DNA from: Ascidia mentula
Taxonomy: Eukaryota; Chordata; Ascidiacea; Phlebobranchia; Ascidiidae
Direction: 5' to 3'
Assembly: GCA_947561715.1 (NCBI GenBank)
Contig: OX387203.1
Location: forward strand, 17,112,001 to 17,176,000
DNA: 64,000 nucleotides
Below the pieces are notes generated by a model, which did not search any database, was not told the origin of the DNA, and saw only the letters and a program-made list of their open reading frames with translations. Shown here one piece after another: positions 44,011-64,000 of the stretch. The position numbers and the translations under genes were made by a program. Position 1 is the stretch's first letter; each line of letters begins with the position of its first letter.

Positions 44011-45348
44011 ATGGATGAACTTGTGTGTTCTTTATTGCTTGAACAGCAAAACCTTATTCTCCTATTGTTAATGAAGCAACAGAAACGAAGGTGGTGGGTG
44101 AGACCCATATTGCAGAAGAGAAAAAGTATGGGCGAGCAAAATCTGGTGCAAGAAATGAGAAACGACCCCCAGAGTTTCCATAAGTATTTTCGGATGGACA
44201 CTGCTTCATATGATTTGCTTTTATCGCTGGTTCAGCCCTTAATAGAGAAACAGGACACACCGTGGAGAGAAGCAATTTCGGCAAATCAGAAGCTTGCAAT
44301 GACTTTAAGGTATGTATTACATGTTATGTAGGTATAGGCTACTGTAAATTAGATATGTTTTCACCATCTGGATCTAATAATTGTAACAAACTGTCTTAGG
44401 TACTTGGCCACAGGAGATTCCCAACAAACAATAGCCTTCAATTTCCGTGTCGGGCGTTCAACCATATCTGGAATTCTTACAGACACTTGCAAAGCACTTT
44501 GTCAAGTTTTGCAGCCTTACTTGAAAATGCCATCATCACAAGAAGAATGGCATGCCATAGCTTCCGATTATGAACGCCAATGGAACTTCCCAATGTGCGT
44601 TGGTGCTATTGACGGAAAGCACGTTATGATTCAAGCCCCGCCGATGTCAGGTTCAGAGTTTTACAACTACAAGGGGCACTTCAGCATTGTATTGATGGCT
44701 TGCTGCACAGCTAATTACAAGTTTTCGTACGTCGATATAGGAGACTCCGGAAGACACAGCGACGGGGGAGTTTTTTCAAACTCAATCTTCGGCCAGCAAT
44801 TGTTGCACGGCAACTTACCGTTGCCTGCTCCTCGTTGTCTCCCGAATACAACAACAACTGTACCCTATTGTTTTGTTGGAGATGCAGCCTTTCCACTCAG
44901 AAACAACCTAATGAGGCCTTATCCGGGTCATTTCTTGCCAACTGACAAAAGAATTTTTAACTATAGGCTTTCAAGAGCAAGGCGGGTAATTGAAAATACA
45001 TTTGGAATTTTATCTACACGTTGGCGAATTTTCAGGCGACCTATAATAGCTAACGTAGACAAAGCAGTTTTAATTACCAAGGCCGCTTGTTCCCTTCACA
45101 ACTTTCTTCAAGACCAAGGGGATGAAAGTTACTTGCCTTCACACCTACTAGATAGAGAGGATAATGGTGAACTTGTACCAGGGTCCTGGAGAGCGGAAAC
45201 TATTGGAAACAACCTCCAAGAACTAGGCCAAATAAGCTCCAATAACTACACTCGTAATGCTGCACAAGTGAGGGATCATTTCAAGGATTTTTTTGTTTCA
45301 GATGTCGGTCAACTGCCATGGCAAAACTCTGTTGTTACCCGAACATAA
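44011..45348 (+). CDS. Harbinger transposase (HARBI1-like DDE)
   Basis: Exons 44011-44309 and 44400-45348 (AG|gtatgt...cttag|G) give 415 residues with no disabling change. The DDE catalytic core is visible: VGAIDGKHV (first Asp), VGDAAFPL (second Asp) and RRVIENTFGIL (Glu). An upstream helix-turn-helix-like segment (DSQQTIAFNFRVGRSTISGI) precedes it. The N-terminal exon carries the MRNDPQSFHKYFRMD motif common in this family. Because the reading frame is intact, the copy is young, active or domesticated; the terminal repeat at the left argues for a transposon. Confidence 0.92.
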
Positions 45349-45619: not shown

Positions 45620-46059
45620 GAAAACAAAAAACTATTAATTTTTTCTGATTTAAGTGGAAAACAACACATCAAAAATCATGTACAATCATACCATTACCAA
45701 CATTTCAAAAGCTTGAACTAATACATGATTTGCACCAACGCCAATGCGCATGCGCGAGAATCGGGGTCATAGGTTAAGTTGTGCTACGCGCGTTTTGTTG
45801 TGTAGAAAATGACCACCGTCATTTCGGCGAAATGGAAATTGGCTAAAACCGAAATTATTTCACGCATCAGTGAATACGACTTCAGACGATTGCGTTCACA
45901 CAAATAATGCATTGACTCGTGACAAAAACAAACCATGCGATATAAAAACAAGCATTTCAATCAACAAAGTCAGCAATACTTTTAAAACAATATCTATACT
46001 TATATAATTTCAATTTTTGAACACCTATCAACTGCGAAGTGTGGCACAAATACAGTGAC

Positions 46060-49000
46060 AACTTTGACGACATATTTGAAAATGTTCCGAACTGAGGAAT
46101 TTTTTCAAAATCGCTCTAAATGTAGCTAAGAGCATATGGAACAACACGTCAGTGTTTATTTTTTACACCGGTAGCTCGTATGCCAACGAAACAACTTTAA
46201 GTCCGACAAGGGGCCATGTGACATGCAGCTGCGATCAACCCACGCAAGTGCGCATTCAATGCGACAAATTTAACGACATATTTGAAAATGTTCCGAACTA
46301 AGGATTTTTTTTAAAATCGCCCTAAATGTAGCTAAGAGCATATGGAACAACACGTCAGTGTTTATTTTTTACACCGGTAGCTCGTATGCCAACGAAATAA
46401 CTTTAAGTCCGACAGGGGCCATGTGACATGCAGCTGCGATCAACCTACGCAAGTGCGTATTCAATGCGACAAATTTAACGACATATTTGAAAATGTTCCG
46501 AACTAAGGATTTTTTTTAAAATCGCCCTAAATGTAGCTAAGAGCATATGGAACAACACGACACTGTTTATTTTTTACACCGGTAGCTCGTATGCCAACGA
46601 AATAACTTTAAGTCCGACAGGGGCCATGTGACATGCAGCTGCGATCAACCTACGCAAGTGCGTATTCAATGCGACAACTTTGACGACATATTTGAAAATG
46701 TTCCGAACTAAGGAATTTTTTAAAAATCGCCCTAAATGTAGCTAAGAGCATATGGAACAACACGTCAGTGTTTATTTTTTACACCGGTAGCTCGTATGCC
46801 AACGAAACAACTTTAAGTCCGACAAGGGGCCATGTGACATGCAGCTGCGATCAACCCACGCAAGTGCGCATTCAATGCGACAACTTTGACGACATATTTG
46901 AAAATGTTCCGAACTAAGGATTTTTTTTAAAATCGCACTAAATGTAGCTAAGAGCATATGGAACAACACGTCAGTGTTTATTTTTTACACCGGTAGCTCG
47001 TATGCCAACGAAATAACTTTAAGTCCGACAGGGGCCATGTGACATGCAGCTGCGATCAACCTACGCAAGTGCGCATTCAATGCGACAACTTTGACGACAT
47101 ATTTGAAAATGTTCCGAACTAAGGAATTTTTTAAAAATCGCCCTAAATGTAGCTAAGGGCATATGGAACAACACGTCAGTGTTTATTTTTTACACCGGTA
47201 GCTCGTATGCCAACGAAATAACTTTAACTCCGACAGGGGCCATGTGACATGCAGCTGTGATCAACCTACGCAAGTACGCATTCAATGCGACAACTTTGAC
47301 GACATATTTGAAAATGTTCCGAACTAAGGAATTTTTTTAAAATCGCCCTAAATGTAGCTAAGGGCATATGGAACAACACGTCAGTGTTTATTTTTTACAC
47401 CGGTAGCTCGTATGCCAACGAAATAACTTTAAGTCCGACAGGGGCCATGTGACATGCAGCTGTGATCAACCTACGCAAGTACGCATTCAATGCGACAACT
47501 TTGACGACATATTTGAAAATGTTCCGAACTAAGGAATTTTTTTAAAATCGCCCTAAATGTAGCTAAGAGCATATGGAACAACACGTCAGTGTTTATTTTT
47601 TACACCGGTAGCTCGTATGCCAACGAAACAACTTTAAGTCCGACAGGGGCCATGTGACATGCAGCTGCGATCAACCCACGCAAGTGCGCATTCAATGCGA
47701 CAACTTTGACGACATATTTGAAAATGTTCCGAATTAAGGATTTTTTTTAAAATCGCCCTAAATGTAGCTAAGAGCATATGGAACAACACGTCAGTGTTTA
47801 TTTTTTACACCGGTAGCTCGTATGCCGACGAAATAACTTTAAGTCCGACAGGGGCCATGTGACATGCAGCTGCGATCAACCTACGCAAGTGCGTATTCAA
47901 TGCGACAACTTTGACGACATATTTGAAAATGTTCCGAACTAAGGAATTTTTTAAAAATCGCCCTAAATGTAGCTAAGAGCATATGGAACAACACGTCAGT
48001 GTTTATTTTTTACACCGGTAGCTCGTATGCCAACGAAATAACTTTAAGTCCGACAGGGGCCATGTGACATGCAGCTGCGATCAACCTACGCAAGTGCGTA
48101 TTCAATGCGACAACTTTGACGACATATTTGAAAATGTTCCGAACTAAGGAATTTTTTAAAAATCGCCCTAAATGTAGCTAAGAGCATATGGAACAACAGG
48201 TTAGTGCTTATTTTTTACACCGGTAGCTCGTATGCCAACGAAATAACTTTCAGTCCGACAGGGGCCATGTGACATGCAGCTGCGATCAACCTACGCAAGT
48301 GCGCATTCAATGCGACAACTTTGACGACATATTTGAAAATGTTCCGAACTAAGGAATTTTTTTAAAATCGCCCTAAATGTAGCTAAGAGCATATGGAACA
48401 ACAGGTTAGTGCTTATTTTTTACACCGGTAGCTCGTATGCCAACGAAATAACTTTGAGTCCGACAGGGGCCATGTGACATGCAGCTGCGATCAACCTACG
48501 CAAGTGCGCATTCAATGCGACAACTTTGACGACATATTTGAAAATGTTCCGAACTAAGGAATTTTTTTAAAATCGCCCTAAATGTAGCTAAGGGCATATG
48601 GAACAACACGTCAGTGTTTATTTTTTACACCGGTAGCTCGTATGCCAACGAAATAACTTTAAGTCCGACAGGGGCCATGTGACATGCAGCTGTGATCAAC
48701 CTACGCAAGTACGCATTCAATGCGACAACTTTGACGACATATTTGAAAATGTTCCGAACTAAGGAATTTTTTTAAAATCGCCCTAAATGTAGCTAAGAGC
48801 ATATGGAACAACACGTCAGTGTTTATTTTTTACACCGGTAGCTCGTATGCCAACGAAACAACTTTAAGTCCGACAAGGGGCCATGTGACATGCAGCTGCG
48901 ATCAACCCACGCAAGTGCGCATTCAATGCGACAACTTTGACGACATATTTGAAAATGTTCCGAACTAAGGAATTTTTTTAAAATCGCCCTAAATGTAGCT

Positions 49001-49520
49001 AAGGGCATATGGAACAACACGTCAGTGTTTATTTTTTACACCGGTAGCTCGTATGCCAACGAAATAACTTTAAGTCCGACAGGGGCCATGTGACATGCAG
49101 CTGCGATCAACCTACGCAAGTACGCATTCAATGCGACAACTTTGACGACATATTTGAAAATGTTCCGAACTAAGGATTTTTTTTAAAATCGCCCTAAATG
49201 TAGCTAAGAGCATATGGAACAACACGTTAGTGCTTATTTTTTACACCGGTAGCTCGTATGCCGACGAAATAACTTTCAGTCTGACAGGGGGCCATGTGAC
49301 ATGTAGCTGCGATCAACCTACGCAAGTGCGCATTCAATGCGACAACTTTGACGACATATTTGAAAATGTTCCGAACTAAGGAATTGTTTCAAAATCGCCC
49401 TAAATGTAGCTAAGAGCATATGAAACAACATGTTAGTGCTTATTTTTTACACCGGTAGCTCGTATGCCAACGAAATAACTTTCAGTCCGACAAGGCGCAT
49501 TGTGACATGCAGCGTACGAT
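46060..49520 (+). repeat. left arm: about 17 tandem 206-bp units
   Basis: Each unit contains ATTTGAAAATGTTCCGAACT, then GCCCTAAATGTAGCTAAGAG, CATATGGAACAACACGTCAG, TTTTTTACACCGGTAGCTCG and GACATGCAGCTGCGATCAAC. Seventeen occurrences of the first motif are spaced 202-209 bp apart. The units differ by only a few bases, with variants (CAACACGTCAGTGTT or CAACAGGTTAGTGCT) shared between non-adjacent units, a sign of ongoing homogenisation. Open frames of about 65 codons repeat with the unit and are not genes. Confidence 0.95.
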
Positions 49521-50159
49521 CATGCAACCTAAACAAGTACAGGCGAAACAATAATGGACATTGTTTCCAAATTGTCAGCTAATTCCTTTTTTTTGAACTT
49601 TAATAACCTTTCGGCACATCATCACAACATGTTTTTTTCAATTTGCACAACTGACAGCCTCCACCGAAACGCAATGAAGTAGACAATCCTGGTAGGTCTG
49701 TGACGCAACAATATGCTAATGCCAAATAATAATAAACTGTACAGACTACAGTGTGAGCCTAGAAGTGCTAGAACCGAAGCAGTGACAAGTATGACAACAA
49801 ATTTGAAATTGTTCCGAATTGAGGAATATTTTTTATACCCGTCTTAAATGTAGCTGTGTAGCTAAGAGCATATGGAACAACAGACCGCTGCTTTTTTTGC
49901 ACTCATGGCTCGTATACGAAAGAAACCTGAAATCTACTCCCTTTTTTATGGCGGGACATTTCAGTTCTTCGATCAAACCTTAACCTTGTATCACAATGTA
50001 CCTATAACGCTTTTTCGTATTAATAAATTTGTTTGAAATTGTACAGTCATGTAGTGGAGAGTTCAAGTAGTTTGTAAGCTTTTAATTTAGCATTAAGAAC
50101 TATGCCGGTATTGGTATAAAGCCACTACACCACGTCAAGGTTCCGGCAATCGTAGTGGT
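49521..50159. repeat. inner left arm, single-copy part
   Basis: Bases 49500-49870 match the reverse complement of about 60430-60760 and, in part, of 61945-62225. A diverged copy of the 206-bp unit start (ATTTGAAATTGTTCCGAATT) lies at about 49800. From 49960 to the end of the large gene the sequence has no clear partner. Confidence 0.8.
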
Positions 50160-50165
50160 TTTATT
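50160..50165 (-). terminator. poly(A) signal of the 2464-aa gene
   Basis: AATAAA on the minus strand, about 100 bp beyond the stop codon at 50267. Confidence 0.6.
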
Positions 50166-50266
50166 TTACAGATAAAACAACATTTAGACACAAACAGTCC
50201 AAATGAAGAAAAGAACTGATGTAAACAATGAAGTCATCTCTCTGAAAAATAACACAATGTTGTTCA

Positions 50267-53200
50267 TTATTGCATGTAAGACGTTGCCTTGAAACCAACG
50301 TCATTCGAAGCCTTAGCATAAGTTACATTAAAGACCTTTACAACGTAATATGTGATAGCTTCAAAGTGTAACACTTCCTTTAAAAACAAATTAGCATCCA
50401 ATTCCTTTTTATTTAACATATCGGCAACCATGCTCTCTTGGACAACTGCATCCTGTTTCAACACAATTCCGCTATACGATTCCCTAAAGACTTGACATCC
50501 AATAAGCCGTTGTCGTACGCGACTTTGACCGAAAAAATGATGTACCAATCGCAATAGGTTTTCAATCACATTTTGTGACAACTTTTCCGAAACGAAATTT
50601 CTGTTAAAGTTTTGTAAGCGATTTTTGTTTTGGCGGTAGTACAAGCAAATGCGGAAACAGTCGGTTCTATATTTCCCAATGTGAAACGATTTGGACAGGG
50701 ACGCTGTAAGTTGCCTTAAAACAAACTTATACACCTCTTGCGTAGGCAATGCCAATAAGTTAAAATCTGAAACAAACTCATCACTGCCGTCAACCTTGTG
50801 TTTAAAAGATATGTTTTTATAAATGACGCGATCACTTGACTTTGCTGCCGATTCATTAAAACGGCGTCGCTTTCTGCGAATAACAGTAACTGGTTGAGGC
50901 AGAATGGGTCGGTTTTCAGGTTTTAATTTTTTATAAAAAAAAATACAACTTCCGGTCAATATTTTCTCCTCCGCGCTTTTCAAAGTTACATGTCTTACAA
51001 TATTATCATTAAACTCAGTTACTCCATATTCCGAAAACTTGTAAGCTACGTAGTGACCGAAATTAACCCCAGTTCCAACATGTACGACAACAGACACAAG
51101 CCTAAATGAAACTCCTTGCGAAAAAGACAACGTATTATCAGGAATTACTCGTTTTGTGCTTTTTATCCCGTCTAAATTTCTGTAAAATCCAATGCAAAGT
51201 ATGTCCGCCGTTTTACTAAGCTCAGTTAATACAGATTTTTGTGTTTCTGAATTGCAATGCGCACAACGGCCCCGAGCAACGCTGCGAAATTGAGCATCAC
51301 AATAAGCACTGAGATTGCTTTTGTCGGGGATATCATCGAACAGAGGCAAACTCAATACAGGTTGTTGATTTTCAAATTTCTCCTCGTTGCCACAAGACTT
51401 GCAAATGGTGGATGTTTTGTAATTAAACGAAAAATGTAAATCACAAGTTTTTAAAATTGATGTAAAGTCGATAAGCATTAAAAACTCGTTGGGATCCTGT
51501 TGCTGGCCTAACGTCCAACCAAGGTGCGCACAAACGTCTTTAACTAACTGCAAATACAAAGACTTATCTACTTGATTACCCGCGAGGCAACAAACAAATC
51601 TAGCAATTCTTACTTTTAAGTCACTTTCAGTACCACCGACAACAGGAACCACATCAAACAAACATCTAACTGCTTGCAACACAGAGTTAAACCAACAATT
51701 ATTAAATACATTTGGAAGACCTGACAAGACAAAGTTGTTTTTCTCTATCCACGACTTAATAACATCATTACAACGAAGCGAGTCCTGCACTAATGCATAC
51801 ACAATCCAAACTCGGTACTCTGAGGCGCTAAATTGCTTTACTGGTAAACGCATCATGTTTCTAGTTATTGTTTCCACCGCGTAACAAACACACAGACCAC
51901 AGCTTGTTCGGTCTTCCTGGGGTACTATAGAGTCAAGTTTTACTAAGACATTACAACCAGTAAAAGAGCGCAAAATCGGGACGAAGCATTTACGGATTAA
52001 ACTCAATAAATCTGTCTGTGAACCTACAGCGGAGTCATACAGTACAAGTTGGTTTCTAGAGCTATCAAACCACAAAACCACAAAATGCCCATTAAACAAA
52101 ATTGGAACAAAGACGTGTTCACATAATTTATCATTAAAAAATAAACCATCCAATGCCCTGCGACAATTCTTGAACGTTTTTCCACCAAGCACTTCTCTTG
52201 CTAAAATACTTGTGAGAAACCCAAACCTACCAGGATCAACTAAATTGCAGTTTTTGACAGTCCTTGAAACAAAACAATCGACAACGTTATCCGTTAACCA
52301 TCCAACTGTATCATCTGTGTGAGTCTTAGCAACATTCTGTGTCAATGAGCGATATGTTTTACCACGTGGTCTGTCACAAAGCGAACACAAGTCCAACCAC
52401 GACACGGACTGACGGCAAGGTGTGTCAAGAGCGGTATCAAAAATGGTAGTGGGACTAATCGGAATGTGATGCCAAATAAAATCGGAAAGTTCTTTACATA
52501 GGCTAAAATCCATAGTTTTTTCTGGACAACAAGAATAAAACATCAATTGCGGCGTCTTGTCATTGTTGTTTCTCGACTTATGTGAAAAATGTGATTCATT
52601 TTCGTAGTTAAGGCGCTTAAAACACTTTTCGGATGAATAAAAGCCGGTGTTGTTTCGTTTTCTTTTCTTAAATTTTGATTCAACAACTGGTGTAGGTTTA
52701 TCCGTTTCTAAAATATTTACTTTCGAAGGTTTGTTCTGTTTTAAACTTATCAAGGAATCAGCAAACTGCTTTTGCAAAATCGAAATGGCTTCGTAATATT
52801 TGATTACAAAATCATCAATTCGTGCTATTCTTTTTCCATCCAAAATGTTTGACTTTAAGTCTCCGAAATGTTGTTCAATAATTCCTTGTGTTTTGTTGTT
52901 ACGTAATATAGTTTGATGCCGACAACTTTTCAATTTTGAACAACCCTTCATATAATTTTTAAAAAATTCAGTTTGTTCCATGGTCGTTTTGCCCTTATGC
53001 GCGTGCCTCGACAGATCACCAAGCATTAATTTTGAAGTGCTACAAATTCTACTTAAGATGACCTCTATTACACGGGAGCACAAAGTAGGGTTGTAATATT
53101 TGTTTCTGCCGTCCTTCATATCAAATGCTTGGTCATCTGTTGATTTAACAAAATTATCCAGTCTACACTTATATCTTAAATAAAATGGCGATTGGCGTTC

Positions 53201-56200
53201 TTGCATTTTGTCCGACTCTTTACTAGTGAAAACATAATCTGTGGGGCCAGTTACACCTACACCATCATCGTCAGTGTCGCGTTTGAATTTTCCTGATCTC
53301 GACTTTAAACGAATAAAATGAAGTTCAACTAATGCCGATGTTGCTTTGGAATTGGTCAAAACTATAAAACTTTCTACTGCATCGTCAAGTTCTGCAATTG
53401 TTGTGCAACTAAAAAAAATATTTACCCAAAACAAATAGGTTCTCATCAGTTTAGAACTATCGGAATACTTATTGCACAAAGTTTTTGCGGCCTTCATTGC
53501 ATGGCTGTAGCAATTGTGAATCACAGTTTTTTGCAAGTCACCACAAGCAGGAACGCCTGTTGCAATTTTAAAGCAACGATTATAAAATTCTAAACGAGAT
53601 TCGCGGCAAAATGCTTTTAAAACTGCGTTCCACATTGCCATCGAACCATCAATTATTACTAGTTTGGGCTTCCGCGCCACACAACAAACTTTCAAACAAT
53701 GAAACATAAACGTTTCCAAAAAGTGGCTGATTGAAATAGCATCATGGTTTGTTGTAACGCAAGTGGCAACTGGAAGCGGTGTGCAACCTTGGCTTGGGTT
53801 TCTAATTAATAAAGTATAAACTTGAAAATCGTTGTAATTTTCCATCCGGCGCAACACGCTCCCAGTGGCATCAAAATAGACAACGTCCACAGCGCAAACC
53901 TGATTAAACGCTTTGATTTGCGTATTTGTGTACAACGAAACCAGGGGCGGGTGTAACCGAATGCAACGGATAAATGTTTGACTTTCCTTTTCCATTTTTT
54001 CAAGTAATATTATTAAATTAATAAACCACAATTTACTGAATCGGTTTCCAGTTTCACTTTCACTTTTTATGTTGTTCAAAACGGATTGTGATGGCAAGAA
54101 GGTATGAGCTCCCAGCCAACGTTCCTCCGCAGTGAGTTTGTCAAATAGTTTGCGATATTTTTGAACAGCGGTTTGATGTTTCATCGATTTGCGAATCTTG
54201 TGTCTTAAATTACCACTAACACGTCGACTTTTGCTACACCCCAAACGATGGTTTCGCTTTCCACAAATTTTTACTCGGCACTCAACTTTATCAACAAAAG
54301 ACCAGAAAGTAACAACAAACTTCACTCCACAATTACAACCCTCACATCTTTTGTGACCACAGTAAAAGTTGACCCAACCTTCTCTATAACAGTTATCGTT
54401 CATCGTGATGTTTTTGACGCCATCAAAATTGATCAAATAATTATTGGAGACATTAGGCACACAACCGGAGTAAATTTTACGAATTTCCCTGATCACAATT
54501 TGAACATATAAATCACTGGTAAAATGATTAGCAGACCTATTTTTAACCATTGCTTTCCATTGTTGCAAAGACAGAACAAACAAACCGGTAATACTCACGG
54601 CGTCGTTATGTGCAAAATGTTCCTGGGTCTTAACGTCTATTCCAATTTCATTAACCATGGAATCATGTATTTCGCATATGGCGTCAGGTTCAACACAAAC
54701 TTTGGCAAATGGGGAGTTACCGAATGCAATAATCGAAATTTCGTCGAACGAACTATTTAAATCTTTCCGAACACCCTGATTTGCCACAGGCGAACTACAA
54801 ACCGGCTCCTTATCAACACAAAAACTGCCAGAAGGTGAAACTGTATTATCGTTTTTACAAACATTACCAATAGGCGACTTGCCATATACAAGAGTCGAAA
54901 TGTCGTCGAACGAATCATTTAAATCTGCCCCAACCTCATTTGCCGCAGGCGAACTACAAACCGGCTCCTTATCAGCACAAAAACTGCCAGAAGGTGAAAC
55001 TGTATTATCGTTTTTACAAACATTACCAATAGGCGACTTGCCATATACAAGAGTCGAAATGTCGTCGAACGAATCATTTAAATCTGCCCCAACAACCTCA
55101 TTTGCCACAGGCGAACTACAAACCGGCTCCTTATCAACACAAAAACTGCCAGAAGGTGAAACTGTATTATCGTTTTTACAAACATTACCAATAGGCGACT
55201 TGCCATATACAAGAGTCGAAATGTCGTCGAACGAATCATTTAAATCTGCCCCAACAACCTCATTTACCACAGGCGAACTACAAACCGGCTCCTTGTCAAC
55301 ACAAAAACTGCCAGAAGGTGAAACTGTATTATCGTTTTTACAAACATTACCAATAGGCGACTTGCCATATACAAGAGTCGAAATGTCGTCGAACGAATCA
55401 TTTAAATCTGCCCCAACAACCTCATTTACCACAGGCGAACTACAAACCGGCTCCTTGTCAACACAAAAACTGCCAGAAGGTGAAACTGTATTATCGTTTT
55501 TACAAACATTACCAATAGGCGACTTGCCATATACAAGAGTCGAAATGTCGTCGAACGAATCATTTAAATCTGCCCCAACAACCTCATTTACCACAGGCGA
55601 ACTACAAACCGGCTCCTTGTCAACACAAAAACTGCCAGAAGGTGAAACTGTATTATCGTTTTTACAAACATTACCAATAGGCGACTTGCCATATACAAGA
55701 GTCGAAATGTCGTCGAACGAATCATTTAAATTATTCCCAGCATTCTCATAATCACAGTTGTCACAAAACAAGTTCGGCGATCGAGCATCTTTTGAACTGA
55801 ATTCGAGTTTATGTTCATAGAAAGGTTGTGACGTAGGCTTAGAGCTTGGGCAAATCAAATGGGAACATTTCCATTGGTTTACTGTTAGCAATGCAGCAGC
55901 AGATGAAGTACTAAAGGCACAACTCGGATGAAACCAATTCTTACAAGTCTCACATTCAACCATTAGTCGACCGTCGTACGGCGTTTTACAAATACAGAAC
56001 AATTCAATAGGATGTGTTGTAATCCGCGTATACGAGGTGTGTTGTGGTAATTTTATTCCTCGGAGTTTATTATACGATGTCTTTACGGACTGTCGAAATA
56101 CATGGTCAGTCACCCACAATTTATTAACTTTTAAAACATTTTTTTTGTTGATCAATAGTTTGCAAAATTTGAGCAACAATTTGACGGACTGGATTGGCAA

Positions 56201-57661
56201 CTGTGAAGTGTTTGGATATCTGTCCAAATTTCTGGCAAGCGTTGGTATTGCGCGGTAAAACATGTTATCTTTTAACGGCGACAATTGAAAAGAGGATGAT
56301 TGGGTTTTAAGACAAACATCACGTATATCCTTGTGATGGGCATTGCAAAAGTTTAAGAGCTGTTTCAAACGTTTGTTCATACACATACCCTTCCATAATA
56401 AATTATTTCGAAGGAATACCAATCCAGATTTTCGACTCATTTTTCGAACACCACGAGACAACAAAAACCGAGACACCATGTCAACTTTTTGGGAAACACT
56501 AACCAAGTTCGAGCCGCCTGTGCGCACTAAACGGACTGCAGGATTTACTGGACATAAAGCAGCATGCGGAGTAATACCAATATAAAATTTTTGACTACAT
56601 GGAAATTTCCCGGGACAAAAAATTGGTGACTCTACAACCACTGAACCAATGTCTGTCAAACCAGCACTAGATCGAAAGTTTTTTGTTACCTTGCTTGATT
56701 CGCTCGGAGCACGAGTCACCTTGGCGGACACACCCTTTGCATCACCCGAGGATCTGTTAGGGGCACTTACCACCTTGTTGGAGGCACCCTTTGCATCACC
56801 CGAGGATACGTTAGGGGCACTTACAACCTTGGTGGAGGCACCCTTTGCATCACCCGAGGATCCGCTAGGGGCACTTACCACCTTGGTGGAGGCACCCTTT
56901 GCATCACCCGAGGATCCGCTAGGGGCACTTACCACCTTGTTGGAGGCATCCTTTGCATCACCCGAGGATTTAGGGGCACTTACCACCTTGTTGGAGGCAC
57001 CCTTTGCATCACCCGAGGATTTAGTGGCACTTACCACCTTGTTGGAGGCACCCTTTGCATCACCCGAGGATACGCTAGGGGCACTTACCACCTTGGTGGA
57101 GGCACCCTTTGCATCACCCGAGGATTTAGGGGCACTTACCACCTTGTTGGAGGCACCCTTTGCATCACCCGAGGATACGCTAGGGGCACTTACCACCTTG
57201 GTGGAGGCACCCTTTGCATCACCCGAGGATACGCTAGGGGCACTTACCACCTTGGTGGAGGCACCCTTTGCATCACCCGAGGATTTAGGGGCACTTACCA
57301 CCTTGGTGGAGGCACCCTTTGCATCACCCGAGGATCCGCTAGGGGCACTTACCACCTTGGTGGAGGCACCCTTTGCATCACCCGAGGATCCGCTAGGGGC
57401 ACTTACCACCTTGGTGGAGGCACCCTTTGCATCACCCGAGGATCCGCTAGGGGCACTTACCACCTTGGTGGAGGCACCCTTTGCATCACCCGAGGATCCA
57501 CTCGAAGCACGAGGCAATTCGGTGACCGCACACTTTGCTCTTCTGGCAAAACTACAAAATCTTTTCTGATTCACGAACCGGGTTGAACAGACACTTGCTG
57601 TGTTCGGAGTCACTGATGATTTGCCTGGGTATACCTTCCTTGACTCCGTATAGTCGAACAC
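50267..57661 (-). CDS. 2464-aa transposase with PHD, Ulp1-like and USP protease domains
   Basis: Single exon. From the N terminus: about fifteen 17-18-residue repeats (SSGDAKGASTKVVSAP) at 55-335; a PHD finger at about 550-605 (CIC...CETCKNWFHPSC...CSHLIC); six 54-residue repeats (LNDSFDDISTLVYGKSP) and a partial seventh at about 637-980; a Cys/His cluster at 1085-1125 (CGHKRCEGCNC...CGKRNH), possibly WRKY/FLYWCH-like; a MULE-type DDE core with D1264 (YFDATGS), D1338 (IIDGS), C1384/H1387 (CYSH) and E1596 (NNKTQGIIEQHF); a Ulp1/C48-like protease with H1859 (NGHFVVLW), D1876 and Q1915/C1921 (PQEDRTSCGLC); and a ubiquitin-specific protease with C1989 (NNCWFNSVLQ), QQQDPNEFL, two CxxC pairs and H2203 (GHYVAY). 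Residues 2250-2464 are unassigned. All catalytic residues are present. The transposase presumably acts on the arms; protease roles are inference. Confidence 0.88.
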   Translation of the reverse strand: MFDYTESRKVYPGKSSVTPNTASVCSTRFVNQKRFCSFARRAKCAVTELPRASSGSSGDAKGASTKVVSAPSGSSGDAKGASTKVVSAPSGSSGDAKGASTKVVSAPSGSSGDAKGASTKVVSAPKSSGDAKGASTKVVSAPSVSSGDAKGASTKVVSAPSVSSGDAKGASNKVVSAPKSSGDAKGASTKVVSAPSVSSGDAKGASNKVVSATKSSGDAKGASNKVVSAPKSSGDAKDASNKVVSAPSGSSGDAKGASTKVVSAPSGSSGDAKGASTKVVSAPNVSSGDAKGASNKVVSAPNRSSGDAKGVSAKVTRAPSESSKVTKNFRSSAGLTDIGSVVVESPIFCPGKFPCSQKFYIGITPHAALCPVNPAVRLVRTGGSNLVSVSQKVDMVSRFLLSRGVRKMSRKSGLVFLRNNLLWKGMCMNKRLKQLLNFCNAHHKDIRDVCLKTQSSSFQLSPLKDNMFYRAIPTLARNLDRYPNTSQLPIQSVKLLLKFCKLLINKKNVLKVNKLWVTDHVFRQSVKTSYNKLRGIKLPQHTSYTRITTHPIELFCICKTPYDGRLMVECETCKNWFHPSCAFSTSSAAALLTVNQWKCSHLICPSSKPTSQPFYEHKLEFSSKDARSPNLFCDNCDYENAGNNLNDSFDDISTLVYGKSPIGNVCKNDNTVSPSGSFCVDKEPVCSSPVVNEVVGADLNDSFDDISTLVYGKSPIGNVCKNDNTVSPSGSFCVDKEPVCSSPVVNEVVGADLNDSFDDISTLVYGKSPIGNVCKNDNTVSPSGSFCVDKEPVCSSPVVNEVVGADLNDSFDDISTLVYGKSPIGNVCKNDNTVSPSGSFCVDKEPVCSSPVANEVVGADLNDSFDDISTLVYGKSPIGNVCKNDNTVSPSGSFCADKEPVCSSPAANEVGADLNDSFDDISTLVYGKSPIGNVCKNDNTVSPSGSFCVDKEPVCSSPVANQGVRKDLNSSFDEISIIAFGNSPFAKVCVEPDAICEIHDSMVNEIGIDVKTQEHFAHNDAVSITGLFVLSLQQWKAMVKNRSANHFTSDLYVQIVIREIRKIYSGCVPNVSNNYLINFDGVKNITMNDNCYREGWVNFYCGHKRCEGCNCGVKFVVTFWSFVDKVECRVKICGKRNHRLGCSKSRRVSGNLRHKIRKSMKHQTAVQKYRKLFDKLTAEERWLGAHTFLPSQSVLNNIKSESETGNRFSKLWFINLIILLEKMEKESQTFIRCIRLHPPLVSLYTNTQIKAFNQVCAVDVVYFDATGSVLRRMENYNDFQVYTLLIRNPSQGCTPLPVATCVTTNHDAISISHFLETFMFHCLKVCCVARKPKLVIIDGSMAMWNAVLKAFCRESRLEFYNRCFKIATGVPACGDLQKTVIHNCYSHAMKAAKTLCNKYSDSSKLMRTYLFWVNIFFSCTTIAELDDAVESFIVLTNSKATSALVELHFIRLKSRSGKFKRDTDDDGVGVTGPTDYVFTSKESDKMQERQSPFYLRYKCRLDNFVKSTDDQAFDMKDGRNKYYNPTLCSRVIEVILSRICSTSKLMLGDLSRHAHKGKTTMEQTEFFKNYMKGCSKLKSCRHQTILRNNKTQGIIEQHFGDLKSNILDGKRIARIDDFVIKYYEAISILQKQFADSLISLKQNKPSKVNILETDKPTPVVESKFKKRKRNNTGFYSSEKCFKRLNYENESHFSHKSRNNNDKTPQLMFYSCCPEKTMDFSLCKELSDFIWHHIPISPTTIFDTALDTPCRQSVSWLDLCSLCDRPRGKTYRSLTQNVAKTHTDDTVGWLTDNVVDCFVSRTVKNCNLVDPGRFGFLTSILAREVLGGKTFKNCRRALDGLFFNDKLCEHVFVPILFNGHFVVLWFDSSRNQLVLYDSAVGSQTDLLSLIRKCFVPILRSFTGCNVLVKLDSIVPQEDRTSCGLCVCYAVETITRNMMRLPVKQFSASEYRVWIVYALVQDSLRCNDVIKSWIEKNNFVLSGLPNVFNNCWFNSVLQAVRCLFDVVPVVGGTESDLKVRIARFVCCLAGNQVDKSLYLQLVKDVCAHLGWTLGQQQDPNEFLMLIDFTSILKTCDLHFSFNYKTSTICKSCGNEEKFENQQPVLSLPLFDDIPDKSNLSAYCDAQFRSVARGRCAHCNSETQKSVLTELSKTADILCIGFYRNLDGIKSTKRVIPDNTLSFSQGVSFRLVSVVVHVGTGVNFGHYVAYKFSEYGVTEFNDNIVRHVTLKSAEEKILTGSCIFFYKKLKPENRPILPQPVTVIRRKRRRFNESAAKSSDRVIYKNISFKHKVDGSDEFVSDFNLLALPTQEVYKFVLRQLTASLSKSFHIGKYRTDCFRICLYYRQNKNRLQNFNRNFVSEKLSQNVIENLLRLVHHFFGQSRVRQRLIGCQVFRESYSGIVLKQDAVVQESMVADMLNKKELDANLFLKEVLHFEAITYYVVKVFNVTYAKASNDVGFKATSYMQ
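54740..55745 (-). repeat. coding minisatellite, 162-bp unit, six copies plus a partial
   Basis: In-frame tandem repeats encoding LNDSFDDISTLVYGKSPIGN, VCKNDNTVSPSGSFC and KEPVCSSPV. Copies are nearly identical, with single-codon differences (VVNEVV, VANEVV, AANEV). A diverged seventh copy encodes LNSSFDEISIIAFGNSPF at the downstream edge. The identity indicates recent expansion inside an open frame. Confidence 0.95.
56690..57510 (-). repeat. coding minisatellite, 54/51-bp unit, about fifteen copies
   Basis: In-frame repeats encoding SGSSGDAKGASTKVVSAP with 17-residue variants beginning KSS. The unit changes by whole codons only, so the frame is kept. The segment is rich in Ser, Ala and Lys and likely disordered. 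The antisense frame is also open through the array, an artefact of the repeat. Confidence 0.95.
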
Positions 57662-57908
57662 GCAGCCGAAGCAAGAGAGTGGTTTGTAATTTCTTCCTTT
57701 GCGTTCTTTGCTGGGTTCGGGATTATTTGTTGGACTTCTATGCTCTTAAATATTGGCATAAAAGAATTTGGTTTATATATAAATAGAATTGGACATTCAC
57801 TAAGCAACAAAAGGTATATACATATTGAAGATCGACATTTTTTACTTGTTAGTATGTAGGGAAGGGATTTTTATTGGCTCACATTTTGACATTAAAAAAA
57901 AATTAGTC

Positions 57909-57914
57909 TTTATT
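57909..57914 (-). terminator. poly(A) signal of the SGNH gene
   Basis: AATAAA on the minus strand, 17 bp after the SGNH hydrolase stop codon and about 250 bp before the start of the large gene, suggesting separate transcripts. Confidence 0.6.
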
Positions 57915-57930
57915 CGACAAAAATCCCTAA

Positions 57931-58672
57931 TTACAGGAGATACAAGGTAGTTGACAACTCAAGTATTATTTGGCTATGTATGACAGAGAACCAACGGCTA
58001 CCTGCATCACCCGACAAGGCCAGTAGAGTATGGATGTGTGCCTCCAGACTTTCCATGTAATGGAACAGACCAACGTCCGACAAATGAAGGTGGTCTGCCC
58101 AGTTCACGCGGTCGTTGGAGATGTTGTAGTCGAGGAAGCTGAATCCATAATCAATAGCGACATTTTGCAGCAACATGTTCCATTTAGGAACACAAGATTT
58201 ATGAAAACCCGTTTGCTGCAGAATCCCAGCCAAAACGATCTGCAGTTTAAAAAATAACTGTGAAAAGAATTTTGCTGGCTTGGCATGTTTTTACCTTGGC
58301 CTGCGGGTACTTTTGCTGACAAGTCTCAACAAGCAATCGACACTCTGCTTCCAGGCTGCTGTGATTGTGGTCACGTCCAGTAGCGAGGTCGTTCGTCCCC
58401 AATGCCAGAATGACGATATCTACCTGATCGAACCTTCTGCCAAACTCCAGTTCTTTACAGCCGTGGCTCATCTTTCCTCCTGGAATAGAAATGGCATTTA
58501 AACTGAAATACTTACTTTTGGACGATACCACCTGGGGGCAGACAATGTTCCTCCCGTTGCTGTCGGTCACCAACAACACTGAAGGAAGTGGTGACCCCTC
58601 AGCACGGAGGTAACATGTCTGCTTTCCTGAAATTCCGATGTTGTATTGAACTGCCCGAGTTCTTCTTCCCAT
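57931..58672 (-). CDS. transposon-borne SGNH/GDSL-type hydrolase
   Basis: Exons 58295-58672 and 57931-58239 join in phase 0 (AAG|gtaaaa...ctgcag|ATC) into 228 residues. The SGNH blocks are visible: VLLVTDSNGRN (catalytic Ser, about residue 38), LALGTNDLATG (Gly and Asn of the oxyanion hole), and WADHLHLSDVG (catalytic Asp and His). Such domains hydrolyse esters; the substrate is unknown. The gene lies on the same strand as the large transposase gene and 269 bp upstream of it, inside the foldback arms, so it appears to be cargo of the element. SGNH-type esterase domains occur in other animal transposons, usually retroelements. Confidence 0.85.
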
Positions 58673-59285
58673 TGTTGGTTGATGATACTTGCTTGTTTTC
58701 AGAGACTATTCAGTAAGGAATCAAAATATCGACGATGGAGTACGATGTCAATTGATGAAAGCGTTTTTCGTGTAATAGTTTGTCTGTAGGCAAAAAATGT
58801 ACTTTACAATTGCTATTCATAGAATTCATAAAGGTGATTTAGGATAAAAATTCGAAAAACACTTTAAATTGCACTTGCGTCAAAGTATGACGACTAAAAA
58901 CGTCGAAAAATGGTTTGTGCTAACTTAAACAAATAATTCTGCTACACATCATATACATAAAAACATTAACTGATACTCTTGGTATTTGCGCATTGTGCCC
59001 AAGTAAATAACAGCAACAATAAAAATGTAGATGTTGCACTTTATTAAAATTAACTAAAATAGATTCTATCACATGATATTCATGGTGCCGACTTCGCATC
59101 ATCCTAACGGTAAAATATGGCTCAAAATGATTTGGTTTGGAAGAAAGTTCTTCAGTAAAATGAGTGTAACACAGCGGGGAAAATTTCCTTTTCGGGGAAA
59201 ATTTTATGTTTGGATAAAAGAAGAAATTGTTGTGGAATAAGCAACAACACAAAAATTAAGTGTCAGCCAAGAAAAACGTTAGGAA
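58673..59285. other. internal non-coding part of the foldback element
   Basis: Upstream flank of the SGNH gene. Open frames such as 58920-59252 have random composition. No inverted partner in the left half was seen. Confidence 0.5.
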
Positions 59286-59575
59286 TTAACGGCAACTAGC
59301 TCGTCGACCAGCTTGACTTTGGTGTGCGTTTTTACTGCATAGTAAGTTGGTAAAATCACAACATATCAAAGAAGAGACACTAAACCCTATCTAGAAAAGT
59401 TTAGTCCTAAGATATTAGTATTTACGAATTCTTATCTTTATAAGTTGTGTGAATTTACAAAACACATAGCAGATAAACTCTAGTGTACGTGTACTGTTAT
59501 TTTTCTTGCAAACAAGAATTAATCGCTCACGCGAAGCACAAGTATATATTTGCCAGGCGCGCTAGTTGCCGTTAA
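59286..59575. mobile_element. 290-bp MITE with TTAA ends
   Basis: TTAA is followed by CGGCAACTAGC, and the far end is GCTAGTTGCCG followed by TTAA: perfect 11-bp inverted repeats inside a TTAA duplication. This is the target and terminal arrangement of piggyBac- and Kolobok-type non-autonomous elements. It has no coding capacity and is nested inside the foldback element. Confidence 0.75.
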
Positions 59576-60424
59576 TTTAAGACGTTTTTCTTCGCTCCAA
59601 CGTAACATTTTTACCGCAAACGAATTTTTATTAAATAAATCCTATCCAAACCAATGCATATTCAGCCAATCTTTACCTCAAGCATTCTGACGTCAGACAT
59701 ATCGTTGACAAATAGTCGGATCCACGAAAAGCAATGTGGTGAAAAAATATATTAAGATAACGCGCGGGCCGTAACAAAGGTTTGTCGGGCAATCTGTTAT
59801 TACCGCCAGCAATACAGCTGCGGCGATTAATTGCTAAACTCCACAATATTCTTAACCGCCCTCAAATCACGAAATTCTGCTATCCCTCAGGCCGTTGAGT
59901 ACCACTGACATTATTTTAGTAGGACATAACTTTTATACATGCATGATGCAGAATGGTGTTCTCTTATTTTCACTAAACAATACATTCACTCAAAAATATT
60001 TAAAAAGAAACAATGCAAATCCAAAAACAAGCACTCACCATATAATTCAGCAAAAAGTGAAGCGCTAAAAAAAATTGGTGGCAACGTTCGGTTTACTCTT
60101 TATTGCGTCACAACAGTTTCCATGTGAACAAAATGCATAACTGTCTGATTGGACAAATTGAACAATAGGAGTGAGAATGTTGCGGGAGGAGTGAGAGCTG
60201 CCATGCGGATTTCTCATTTTGGTCTATCTGTGACAATTAAAAAAAAAACACACAAATAAGTGCAATGGTTAAACTCTAATGGGCACAATGGTTTGGGTCA
60301 TACAATTGTACGTTTGAGGCAAAGTTTTAGGATATCTAAAAAAATTTCACTTATTTTTTCTAGTTATGTCTCCACATATATTGAGCAGAAAACAATACGT
60401 TGGAATACAAGCTATCAATGCAAA
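59576..60424. other. internal right part of the foldback element before the arm
   Basis: AT-rich, no gene recognised. The pairing with the left arm starts near 60425. Confidence 0.5.
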
Positions 60425-63400
60425 AACTACGCATTGGTATCTTGTTCGGAATATTTTCAAATTTGTTTTCAAACTGGTCACTGCTTTGGTTCTAGGCATA
60501 TACACTGTAGGCTGTACAGTTTGTCATTAATTGGCATAAGCATACTGTTGCGTCACAGACCTAACAGGACTGTCTACTTCATTGCGTTTCGGTGGAGGCT
60601 GTCAGTTGTGGAAATTGAAAAAAACATGCTGTGATGATGTGCCGAAAGGTTATTAAAGTTCAAAAAAAAGGAATTAGCTGACAATTTGGAAACAATGTCC
60701 ATTATTGTTTCGCCTGTACTTGTTTAGGTTGCATGATCGTACGCTGCATGTCACAATGCGCCTTGTCGGACTGAAAGTTATTTCGTTGGCATACGAGCTA
60801 CCGGTGTAAAAAATAAGCACTAACATGTTGTTTCATATGCTCTTAGCTACATTTAGGGCGATTTTAAAAAAATTCCTTAGTTCGGAACATTTTCAAATAT
60901 GTCGTCAAAGTTGTCGCATTGAATACGCACTTGCGTAGGTTGATCGCAGCTGCATGTCACATGGCCCCTGTCGGACTTAAAGTTATTTCGTTGGCATACG
61001 AGCTACCGGTGTAAAAAATAAACAGTGACGTGTTGTTCCATATGCTCTTAGCTACATTTAGGGCGATTTTAAAAAAAATCCTTAGTTCGGAACATTTTCA
61101 AATATGTCGTTAAATTTGTCGCATTGAATGCGCACTTGCGTGGGTTGATCGCAGCTGCATGTCACATGGCCCCTTGTCGGACTTAAAGTTGTTTCGTTGG
61201 CATACGAGCTACCGGTGTAAAAAATAAACACTGACGTGTTGTTCCATATGCTCTTAGCTACATTTAGGGCGATTTTAAAAAAATTCCTTAGTTCGGAACA
61301 TTTTCAAATATGTCGTCAAAGTTGTCGCATTGAATGCGTACTTGCGTAGGTTGATCACAGCTGCATGTCACATGGCCCCTGTCGGACTTAAAGTTATTTC
61401 GTTGGCATACGAGCTACCGGTGTAAAAAATAAGCACTAACATGTTGTTTCATATGCTCTTAGCTACATTTAGGGCGATTTTAAAAAAATTCCTTAGTTCG
61501 GAACATTTTCAAATATGTCGTCAAAGTTGTCGCATTGAATGCGCACTTGCGTAGGTTGATCGCAGCTGCATGTCACATGGCCCCTGTCGGACTTAAAGTT
61601 ATTTCGTTGGCATACGAGCTACCGGTGTAAAAAATAAGCACTTACATGTTGTTCCATATGCTCTTAGCTACATTTAGGGCGATTTTAAAAAAATTCCTTA
61701 GTTCGGAACATTTTCAAATATGTCGTCAAAGTTGTCGCATTGAATGCGCACTTGCGTAGGTTGATCGCAGCTGCATGTCACATGGCCCCCTGTCGGACTG
61801 AAAGTTATTTCGTTGGCATACGAGCTACCGGTGTAAAAAATAAACACTAACATGTTGTTCCATATGCTCTTAGGTACATATAAGGCGATTCAAAAAAAAT
61901 TCCTTAGTTCGGAACATTTTCAAATATGTCGTCAAAGTTGTCGCTGCTTTGGTTCTAGGCGTACACTGTAGTCTGTACAGTTTGTCATTAATTGGCATAA
62001 GCATACTGTTGCGTCACAGACCTACCAGGATTGTCTACTTCATTGCGTTTCGGTGGAGGCTGTCAGTTGTGGAAATTGAAAAAAACATGTTGTGATGATG
62101 TGCCGAAAGGTTATTAAAGTTCAAAAAAAAGGAATTAGCTGACAATTTGGAAACAATGTCCATTATTGTTTCGCCTGTACTTGTTTAGGTTGCATGATCG
62201 TACGCTGCATGTCACAATGCGCCTTGTCGGACTGAAAGTTATTTCGTTGGCATACGAGCTACCGGTGTAAAAAATAAGCACTAACATGTTGTTCCATATG
62301 CTCTTAGCTACATTTAGGGCGATTTTAAAAAAATTCCTTAGTTCGGAACATTTTCAAATATGTCGTCAAAGTTGTCGCATTGAATGCGCACTTGCGTAGG
62401 TTGATCGCAGCTGCATGTCACATGGCCCCTGTCGGACTGAAAGTTATTTCGTTGGCATACGAGCTACCGGTGTAAAAAATAAGCACTAACCTGTTGTTCC
62501 ATATGCTCTTAGCTACATTTAGGGCGATTTTAAAAAAATTCCTTAGTTCGGAACATTTTCAAATATGTCGTCAAAGTTGTCGCATTGAATGCGCACTTGC
62601 GTAGGTTGATCGCAGCTGCATGTCACATGGCCCCTGTCGGACTCAAAGTTATTTCGTTGGCATACGAGCTACCGGTGTAAAAAATAAGCACTCACCTGTT
62701 GTTCCATATGCTCTTAGCTACGTTTAGGGCGATTTTAAAAAAATTCCTTAGTTCGGAACATTTTCAAATATGTCGTCAAAGTTGTCGCATTGAATGCGCA
62801 CTTGCGTAGGTTGATCGCAGCTGCATGTCACATGGCCCCTGTCGGACTCAAAGTTATTTCGTTGGCATACGAGCTACCGGTGTAAAAAATAAGCACTAAC
62901 CTGTTGTTCCATATGCTCTTAGCTACATTTAGGGCGATTTTAAAACAATTCCTTAGTTCGGAACATTTTCAAATATGTCGTCAAAGTTGTCGCATTGAAT
63001 ACGCACTTGCGTAGGTTGATCGCAGCTGCATGTCACATGGCCCCTGTCGGACTTAAAGTTATTTCGTTGGCATACGAGCTACCGGTGTAAAAAATAAACA
63101 CTGACGTGTTGTTCCATATGCTCTTAGCTACATTTAGGGAGATTTTAAAAAAATTCCTTAGTTCGGAACATTTTCAAATATGTCGTCAAAGTTGTCGCAT
63201 TGAATGCGTACTTGCGTAGGTTGATCACAGCTGCATGTCACATGGCCCCTGTCGGACTTAAAGTTATTTCGTTGGCATACGAGCTACCGGTGTAAAAAAT
63301 AAACACTGACGTGTTGTTCCATATGCTCTTAGCTACATTTAGGGCGATTTTAAAAAAATTCCTTAGTTCGGAACATTTTCAAATATGTCGTCAAAGTTGT

Positions 63401-64000
63401 CGCATTGAATGCGTACTTGCGTAGGTTGATCACAGCTGCATGTCACATGGCCCCTGTCGGACTTAAAGTTATTTCGTTGGCATACGAGCTACCGGTGTAA
63501 AAAATAAACACTGACGTGTTGTTCCATATGCCCTTAGCTACATTTAGGGCGATTTCAAAAAAAATTCCTTAGTTCGGAACATTTTCAAATATGTCGTCAA
63601 AGTTGTCGCATTGAATGCGCACTTGCGTAGGTTGATCGCAGCTGCATGTCACATGGCCCCTGTCGGACTTAAAGTTATTTCGTTGGCATACGAGCTACCG
63701 GTGTAAAAAATAAGCACTTACATGTTGTTCCATATGCTCTTAGCTACATTTAGGGCGATTTTAAAAAAATTCCTTAGTTCGGAACATTTTCAAATATGTC
63801 GTCAAAGTTGTCGCATTGAATGCGCACTTGCGTAGGTTGATCGCAGCTGCATGTCACATGGCCCCCTGTCGGACTGAAAGTTATTTCGTTGGCATACGAG
63901 CTACCGGTGTAAAAAATAAACACTAACATGTTGTTCCATATGCTCTTAGGTACATATAAGGCGATTCAAAAAAAATTCCTTAGTTCGGAACATTTTCAAA
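60425..64000 (-). repeat. right arm: about 15 tandem 206-bp units in inverted orientation
   Basis: The reverse complement of the left-arm unit recurs about every 205 bp from about 60.75 kb and continues to the window end, where the last unit is cut. A 280-bp inner segment (GCTTTGGTTCTAGGC through GCCTTGTCGGACTGAAAG) occurs at both 60463-60760 and 61945-62230, so the right arm has a higher-order repeat absent from the left arm. Confidence 0.93.

Follow-up and report, generated by a model that had tools for sequence, protein, structure and literature searches.

We looked at a 64,000-bp stretch of chromosome 7 of Ascidia mentula (Chordata), hereafter the window, in which a first-pass annotation had placed a giant foldback transposon at 46030..64000. 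The element is real and proved to be larger than drawn: it runs from 45812 to 65928, so that its left end lies further out and its right end falls beyond the window, and at 20,117 bp it bears out the claim of a size above 18 kb. Very probably, it is a complete DNA transposon with terminal inverted repeats, of autonomous size, that has foldback arms and is of the MULE/Rehavkus kind. It has defined ends, an 8-bp target duplication, paralogous empty sites and many copies in the genome, its catalytic residues are intact and conserved, and its ratio of nonsynonymous to synonymous substitution (dN/dS) is mostly well below 1.

To find the outer end, the sequence was extended by 8 kb to the right (locus L009), and a defined right terminus was found at 65928, that is, 1,928 bp past the window end. 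The element runs ACCACCGTC...GACGGTGGT and is flanked on both sides by the exact 8-bp duplication AGAAAATG, located at 45804..45811 on the left and at extended coordinates 65929-65936 in L009 on the right. A left terminal domain of 245 bp (45812..46056, plus strand) starts with the tip ACCACCGTCATTTCGGCGAAATG, whose outermost bases are mirrored at the right end, and the right terminal domain (65684-65928, beyond the window) is 99% identical to it. The 23-bp tip was detected at 76 genomic places with at most two mismatches (48 of them exact), while the reversed control pattern was detected at none, indicating that the recurrence of the tip is not due to chance. Convergent tips were then considered in 24 pairings, involving 23 distinct right ends, one of which was used with two left ends. 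An exact 8-bp direct repeat was present outside ACC...GGT in 14 of these pairings, and the longest exact flank match was 8 in each of the 14, instead of the duplication of about 9 bp that had been expected. As a control, none of 552 mis-paired flanks matched with one mismatch or fewer. Moreover, all six pairings that enclose a scored transposase copy carry the exact 8-bp repeat.

The search for empty sites was also positive. The last 92 bp to the left of the element are part of a genomic repeat, and the flanking repeat that hosts the element is at least 172 bp long (window 45720-45811 and L009 2937-3026). When both flanks were joined with a single copy of the 8-mer and used as a query, 43 candidates were obtained and 40 were scored; 29 of the 40 matched positions 1-172 fully, with 84-97% identity. 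The window locus appeared in this search only as two halves. Since the joined flanks are uninterrupted at 29 places and split at the window locus, the element was cleanly inserted into a copy of another repeat.

The element contains two genes, both on the minus strand. The larger one encodes a transposase polyprotein and is open over 2,492 amino acids (50267..57745, coordinates given from stop to stop rather than from a start codon); the protein referred to below as P0001 (50267-57661, 2,464 amino acids) is counted from a GTG. Reading along the minus strand, the frame contains N-terminal coding repeats (56717..57499; 14.7 copies of a 54-bp unit, that is, 18 amino acids of the SGDAKGASTKVVSAP type), a PHD finger (residues 556-600, 55862..55996), internal coding repeats (54733..55731; 6.2 copies of a 162-bp unit of 54 amino acids, 97% match), a DDE transposase domain (residues 1028-1650, 52712..54580), a Ulp1/C48-like protease region (residues 1715-1965, 51767..52519; H1859, D1876, Q1915, C1921) and a USP domain (residues 1981-2243, 50933..51721; C1989, H2203, D2219). 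The PHD finger matched PF00628 (E 1.1e-5, 25.8 bits for a cut-off of 24) and, among PDB structures, the PHD finger of PHF2 (E 2.4e-7), and the USP domain matched PF00443 (E 4e-10, 40.2 bits for a cut-off of 23.9). The C48-like region matched SENP8 with an E of 0.1. The transposase residues D1264, D1338, C1384xxH1387 and E1596 were invariant in 12 of 12 aligned proteins, as were the PHD Cys/His columns 556, 558, 570, 573, 578, 581 and 604, column 599 being the exception. A multi-domain transposase gene with an intact frame and catalytic residues, as first annotated, is thus present. Another copy (L013 7217-9787) has 81-bp coding repeats, and the repeat sequences of the N-terminal half differ between subfamilies.

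The same arrangement was observed in proteins from two public contigs. P0002 (2,074 amino acids) and P0003 (1,735 amino acids, ending inside the USP domain) aligned with the window protein along the PHD finger, the transposase, the C48-like region and the USP domain with 32-33% identity, indicating that the fusion arose long ago and is found beyond the window locus. With Pfam alone, USP was detected in P0002 (E 8.9e-20), PHD stayed under the cut-off in both proteins, C48 was detected in neither, and the truncated USP of P0003 was not detected. The protein search also returned three shorter relatives. P0006, a relative of the transposase, comes from the tunicate Styela clava.

Next, the transposase copies of the genome were compared. 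Of 527 candidates, 19 were scored, the window copy included, and 17 of them are stop-free in the main match. Both the scored copies and the 76 tip places answer the search for further copies. dN/dS calculated by domain for eight pairs was 0.11-0.52 in 42 of 43 defined values. Four other copies (L019-L022) are 99.5-99.9% identical, with 4-28 differences in 5,859 nt, and each has an exact target duplication. Their elements measure 16.1, 20.2, 16.5 and 13.5 kb; since the frames are equal in length, most of the size difference should be in the arms, which were read in part. Shorter derivatives with the same tips also exist, spanning 0.8-7.3 kb from tip to tip, a length that leaves no room for the large gene. 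These results indicate that the giant element family was recently active. The window copy itself would presumably be expressed and mobile.

Divergence was not uniform along the protein. Between the window copy and L015, synonymous divergence was 83/402 in the transposase and 18/323 in the USP plus C-terminus (p 2.5e-9), and between L017 and L018 it was 257/398 against 22/313 (p 2.9e-61), with a switch located between residues 1628 and 1728, in the transposase-protease linker. The converse pattern was observed between L016 and L018 (71/405 against 122/313, p 2.3e-10). These jumps indicate that modules pass between elements, through either recombination or gene conversion.

The genes are enclosed by inverted satellite arms, as had been proposed, with a unit of 205 bp instead of 206 bp. 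The left arm (46057..49522, plus strand) contains 16.9 tandem units of 205 bp with 96% match according to Tandem Repeats Finder, and the right arm (minus strand) extends over 60734..64000 in the window and on to 65683 outside it, with 23.9 copies of the 205-bp unit and 86% match by the same program. Among 154 inverted pairs, the longest 25 show the arms to be 95-98% complementary. An inner spacer (49523..50266) separates the left arm from the transposase gene and holds an AATAAA at 50165 (minus strand), 102 nt past the transposase stop. The right arm contains an internal duplication, with an offset of 2,078 bp and 98.5% identity over 2,876 bp, and the arms have therefore been homogenised by local duplication. 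Consequently, the near-identity of the arm units, which had been put forward as a sign of recent activity, is poor evidence of recent transposition; recent activity of the family is better shown by the four other near-identical copies, each with its exact target duplication.

The arm units of four subfamilies are 205, 187, 188 and 206 bp long and have an overall identity of 44-71%. They share a 40-column block with 68-95% identity and 23 invariant columns, a value equalled in none of 2,000 column shuffles, in an alignment biased toward the block, as the units were rotated to a motif picked by eye and the orientation of one subfamily was set to fit. By analogy, this conserved block of about 40 bp is a candidate binding site for a protein, possibly the transposase; extra transposase sites have been reported for Galileo (cited in PMC4079207), which serves as the model here. 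For Tetris, such units have been proposed to originate at the tip; here, a derivation of this kind was unsupported, the terminal domain and the arm unit sharing matches of only 7-8 bp.

Several results weigh against a complete and autonomous MULE-type element. In 10 of the 24 tip pairings, there was no duplication, with three or more mismatches. The first Met of the large frame is residue 395. The C48-like region matched PF02902 just under the cut-off (E 0.001, 19.4 bits for 20.7) and in one of three members, and the Ulp1 aspartate is replaced by Asn in five of 10 aligned genomic copies (L019-L022 and L025). As for selection, the USP domain gave a dN/dS of 0.71 between the window copy and L015, on few differences, and five of 48 values were undefined from saturation, several synonymous rates being near saturation. 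The remaining points concern the class of the transposase. No Pfam family matched it significantly, the MULE profile PF10551 reaching E 0.026 in one of 12 members, and in an hhalign comparison with the MULE open reading frames of the same genome, 13 of 100 shuffles reached the score, which was not used as evidence. The model of the RNase H-like transposase core was nearest to ISCth4, which we take to be an IS256/MULE relative, with low Foldseek TM-scores (0.24-0.32), and was itself of low confidence (mean predicted local distance difference test score, pLDDT, 49; predicted template modelling score 0.45).

Within this model, residues 81-220 formed pLDDT blocks of 57-83, with one at 46, while a model of the whole 641-amino-acid transposase region from three sequences was unusable (mean pLDDT 36.7). 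No eukaryotic MULE structure was among the fold-search matches, which is neutral either way. The top match in the viral model library was the bracovirus protein O92526 (E 6.9e-6), possibly the gene of a Phantom-type element, and none of the 30 pattern matches of an IMG/VR scan, which may pass over records of the window's own genome, was confirmed as a relative. The MULE/IS256 class has a DDE set of D, D, C/D(2)H and E and target duplications of 8-11 bp; the window element has this motif set and, with 8 bp, falls in the range. The assignment to the MULE class thus rests on the motif and on a low-confidence fold model, with no significant sequence match. In sum, second copies and a defined right terminus exist, and the transposase was not shown to lie outside the MULE class, which are the points on which the first-pass annotation could have failed.

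Could the structure be explained otherwise? A satellite array duplicated segmentally and in inverted form on both sides of a cluster of host genes, with no mobility, would be in agreement with long arms of homogenised satellites and with the local duplication of the right arm. It is hardly credible in view of the exact 8-bp duplications, the empty sites, the 76 tips and the dispersion of copies over several chromosomes, and a plain satellite duplication was rejected on account of the uninterrupted joined flanks found elsewhere in the genome. That the giant element is decaying and moved in trans, its polyprotein being no longer one product and the young copies being mobilised by another subfamily, is improbable, if less far-fetched. 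The lack of a Met before residue 395 and the 0.8-7.3-kb derivatives that share the tips are in its favour, whereas 17 of the 19 scored copies are stop-free and dN/dS is mostly 0.1-0.5 in every domain.

The two other possibilities concern affiliation. FB-NOF of Drosophila has a transposase gene between tandem-repeat arms in a foldback plan, and its FB target duplication is 9 bp. A true FB-NOF member, with a NOF-type transposase and expanded arms, would share its plan with the window element, a MULE-class transposase gene lying between inverted arms of tandem repeats; the duplication of 8 bp and not 9 bp speaks against it, the PHD-transposase-Ulp1-USP order is not known for NOF, and we consider this affiliation very unlikely. 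KDZ/Zisupton elements have 8-bp duplications and Ulp1 domains, and the window element has both an 8-bp duplication and an Ulp1-like domain. Contrarily, the KDZ profile PF18758 matched three other loci of the genome (six matches) and not these copies, although a distant member could escape it, and did not match P0001 even when E values up to 1 were allowed; a KDZ/Zisupton-type element is therefore highly unlikely. A complete terminal-inverted-repeat transposon of the MULE/Rehavkus kind remains by far the preferred reading.

The second gene of the element lies upstream of the transposase gene on the same strand and encodes an SGNH hydrolase. It comprises exon 1 (58295..58672, with an ATG at 58672), a predicted 55-bp GT-AG intron (58240..58294) and exon 2 up to the stop (57931..58239), with AATAAA 17 and 56 nt downstream, and is separated from the right arm by an inner spacer (58673..60733). 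After predicted splicing, the 228-amino-acid translation matched PF13472 (E 8.7e-11, above the cut-off). SGNH/GDSL hydrolases are marked by Ser, Gly, Asn and Asp-His blocks, and blocks of this type (TDSN, IPGG, GTND and DHLHL) are found in the translation. An upstream SGNH match on the same strand was detected in 15 of the 19 scored transposase copies, and the four copies without it form one young subfamily; in one of these (L066), the upstream sequence was read over about 3.5 kb and contained no SGNH match. Relatives of exon 1 with 61-70% identity are present in two public contigs, and dN/dS was 0.18 and 0.26 for exon 1 and 0.34 for exon 2. The SGNH gene is thus probably an accessory of the element and not random captured cargo. 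Giant retroelements, too, are reported to have accessory genes for GDSL-type esterases (PMC6431247).

Other loci were noted in passing. A 31.3-kb unit (G000:C71:810486-841778; L052, L053, L100-L105) has the same tips and an exact 8-bp duplication, and the 188-bp satellite appears in it near +2.5 and +6.5 kb. Of six samples taken from it, four, all interior, match none of the sequences compared, and three of these four share, as judged by eye, a different sort of motif, inverted or tandem; this unit could be either a larger element or nested insertions. At G000:C69:18906000-18935999 (L011-L013), two ends of the right type, at 18911533 and 18926191, point the same way with about 14.7 kb between them. 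Each is 96% similar to the window tip domain, and a broken transposase copy lies at a distance of about 10 kb, which suggests a rearranged or duplicated cluster. At G000:C69:16385148-16402229 (L085-L087), the flanks of two left tips and one right tip are reverse complements of each other (GCGCCAAG/CTTGGCGC), as would be expected if the insertions had hit the two ends of some other inverted structure. In the window itself, a 331-amino-acid open frame at 44353-45348 (plus strand) adjoins the giant element and matches DDE_Tnp_4 (E 9.8e-30); it is presumably a Harbinger-type nuclease gene. A 501-amino-acid frame at 14097-15602 (minus strand) contains a PolyA_pol head domain (E 7.6e-33) and is perhaps a CCA-adding-enzyme-like gene.

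How could such an element move? The DDE transposase, with its predicted RNase H fold and D-D-C(2)H-E set, would bind the conserved 23-bp tips and probably also the block of about 40 bp in every arm unit of about 190-205 bp, pair the two ends, excise the element and insert it via an 8-bp staggered cut. The PHD finger would target the protein to chromatin or hold it there, and the Ulp1- and USP-type domains could strip SUMO or ubiquitin either from factors that silence chromatin or from the transposase. The PHD, Ulp1 and USP parts may thus allow the element to work within repressed chromatin or to evade it, or may spare the transposase from SUMO/ubiquitin control. The arm units are roughly nucleosome-length (187-206 bp in the four subfamilies, by a comparison of lengths). 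In a more elaborate and rather doubtful scheme, the transposon would derepress itself, PHD reading chromatin, Ulp1/USP removing SUMO and ubiquitin and DDE cutting, with nucleosome-length arm units each carrying a binding block and hence a single site, and with subfamilies swapping modules near the transposase-protease boundary.

In the open-licence papers, few hosts of Rehavkus are described, and a coding copy is often missing for foldback elements. Here, a chordate genome offers many open copies, young near-identical ones, short derivatives, defined ends and empty sites, making the transposition chemistry testable. The question of why a transposase keeps deSUMOylase-like and deubiquitinase-like domains becomes testable as well, and satellite arrays are seen to grow inside, and to be spread by, a mobile element.

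Finally, we compared the element with known systems. It shares with FB-NOF the foldback plan with inverted tandem-repeat arms around a transposase gene, and differs from it in unit length, size, duplication length and extra domains. The foldback plan proposed in the first-pass annotation holds, whereas the PHD finger and the terminal tandem repeats make Rehavkus, rather than FB-NOF, the closest described kind; the element is Rehavkus-like, set beside Rehavkus by description only. According to PMC6446971, Rehavkus elements resemble MULEs, contain a PHD finger and one open reading frame, and have a minisatellite close to the terminus, inverted repeats of 26-400 bp and 9-bp duplications; their hosts are Arthropoda and Annelida. 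Rehavkus-1_TC is described in PMC10218199 as 9.5 kb long, with 164-bp tandem units inside inverted termini. As far as these excerpts go, the likeness to Rehavkus (Rehavkus-1_TC, Rehavkus-1_HR) consists of a PHD finger with a MULE-like transposase, tandem repeats in inverted termini and a large size. The window element differs by its 8-bp instead of 9-bp duplication, its 20 kb, its arms of 3.5 and 5 kb, its two genes instead of one open reading frame and its chordate host. It also has Ulp1-like and USP domains, neither of which is mentioned for Rehavkus in the available sections of the two papers. Our search of the open-licence literature, with Repbase outside its scope, returned no report of a Ulp1/USP transposase fusion, and we do not claim that the fusion is unreported. 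Tm1, a Mutator/foldback element of root-knot nematodes, combines a MULE-class transposase with composite foldback termini and has derivatives resembling miniature inverted-repeat elements; in contrast to the window element, it is 2.6 kb long, with a 496-amino-acid Phantom-like transposase with FLYWCH, arm repeats of about 14 bp and a 9-bp duplication (PMC3169594). Tetris of Drosophila virilis has foldback termini whose tandem units of about 220 bp feed satellite arrays, and 8-10 bp duplications; no coding element is known there (PMC4079207), whereas the window family has copies of autonomous size. Lastly, the plant MULEs Kaonashi and KIU-Vandal are described in PMC13317346 as keeping a Ulp1 domain in VANC-type genes linked with the hypomethylation of related elements. 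As there described, the plant Ulp1 is a separate captured gene in elements lacking terminal inverted repeats, whereas in the window element the Ulp1-like domain is part of the transposase protein, which also includes a PHD finger and a USP domain.

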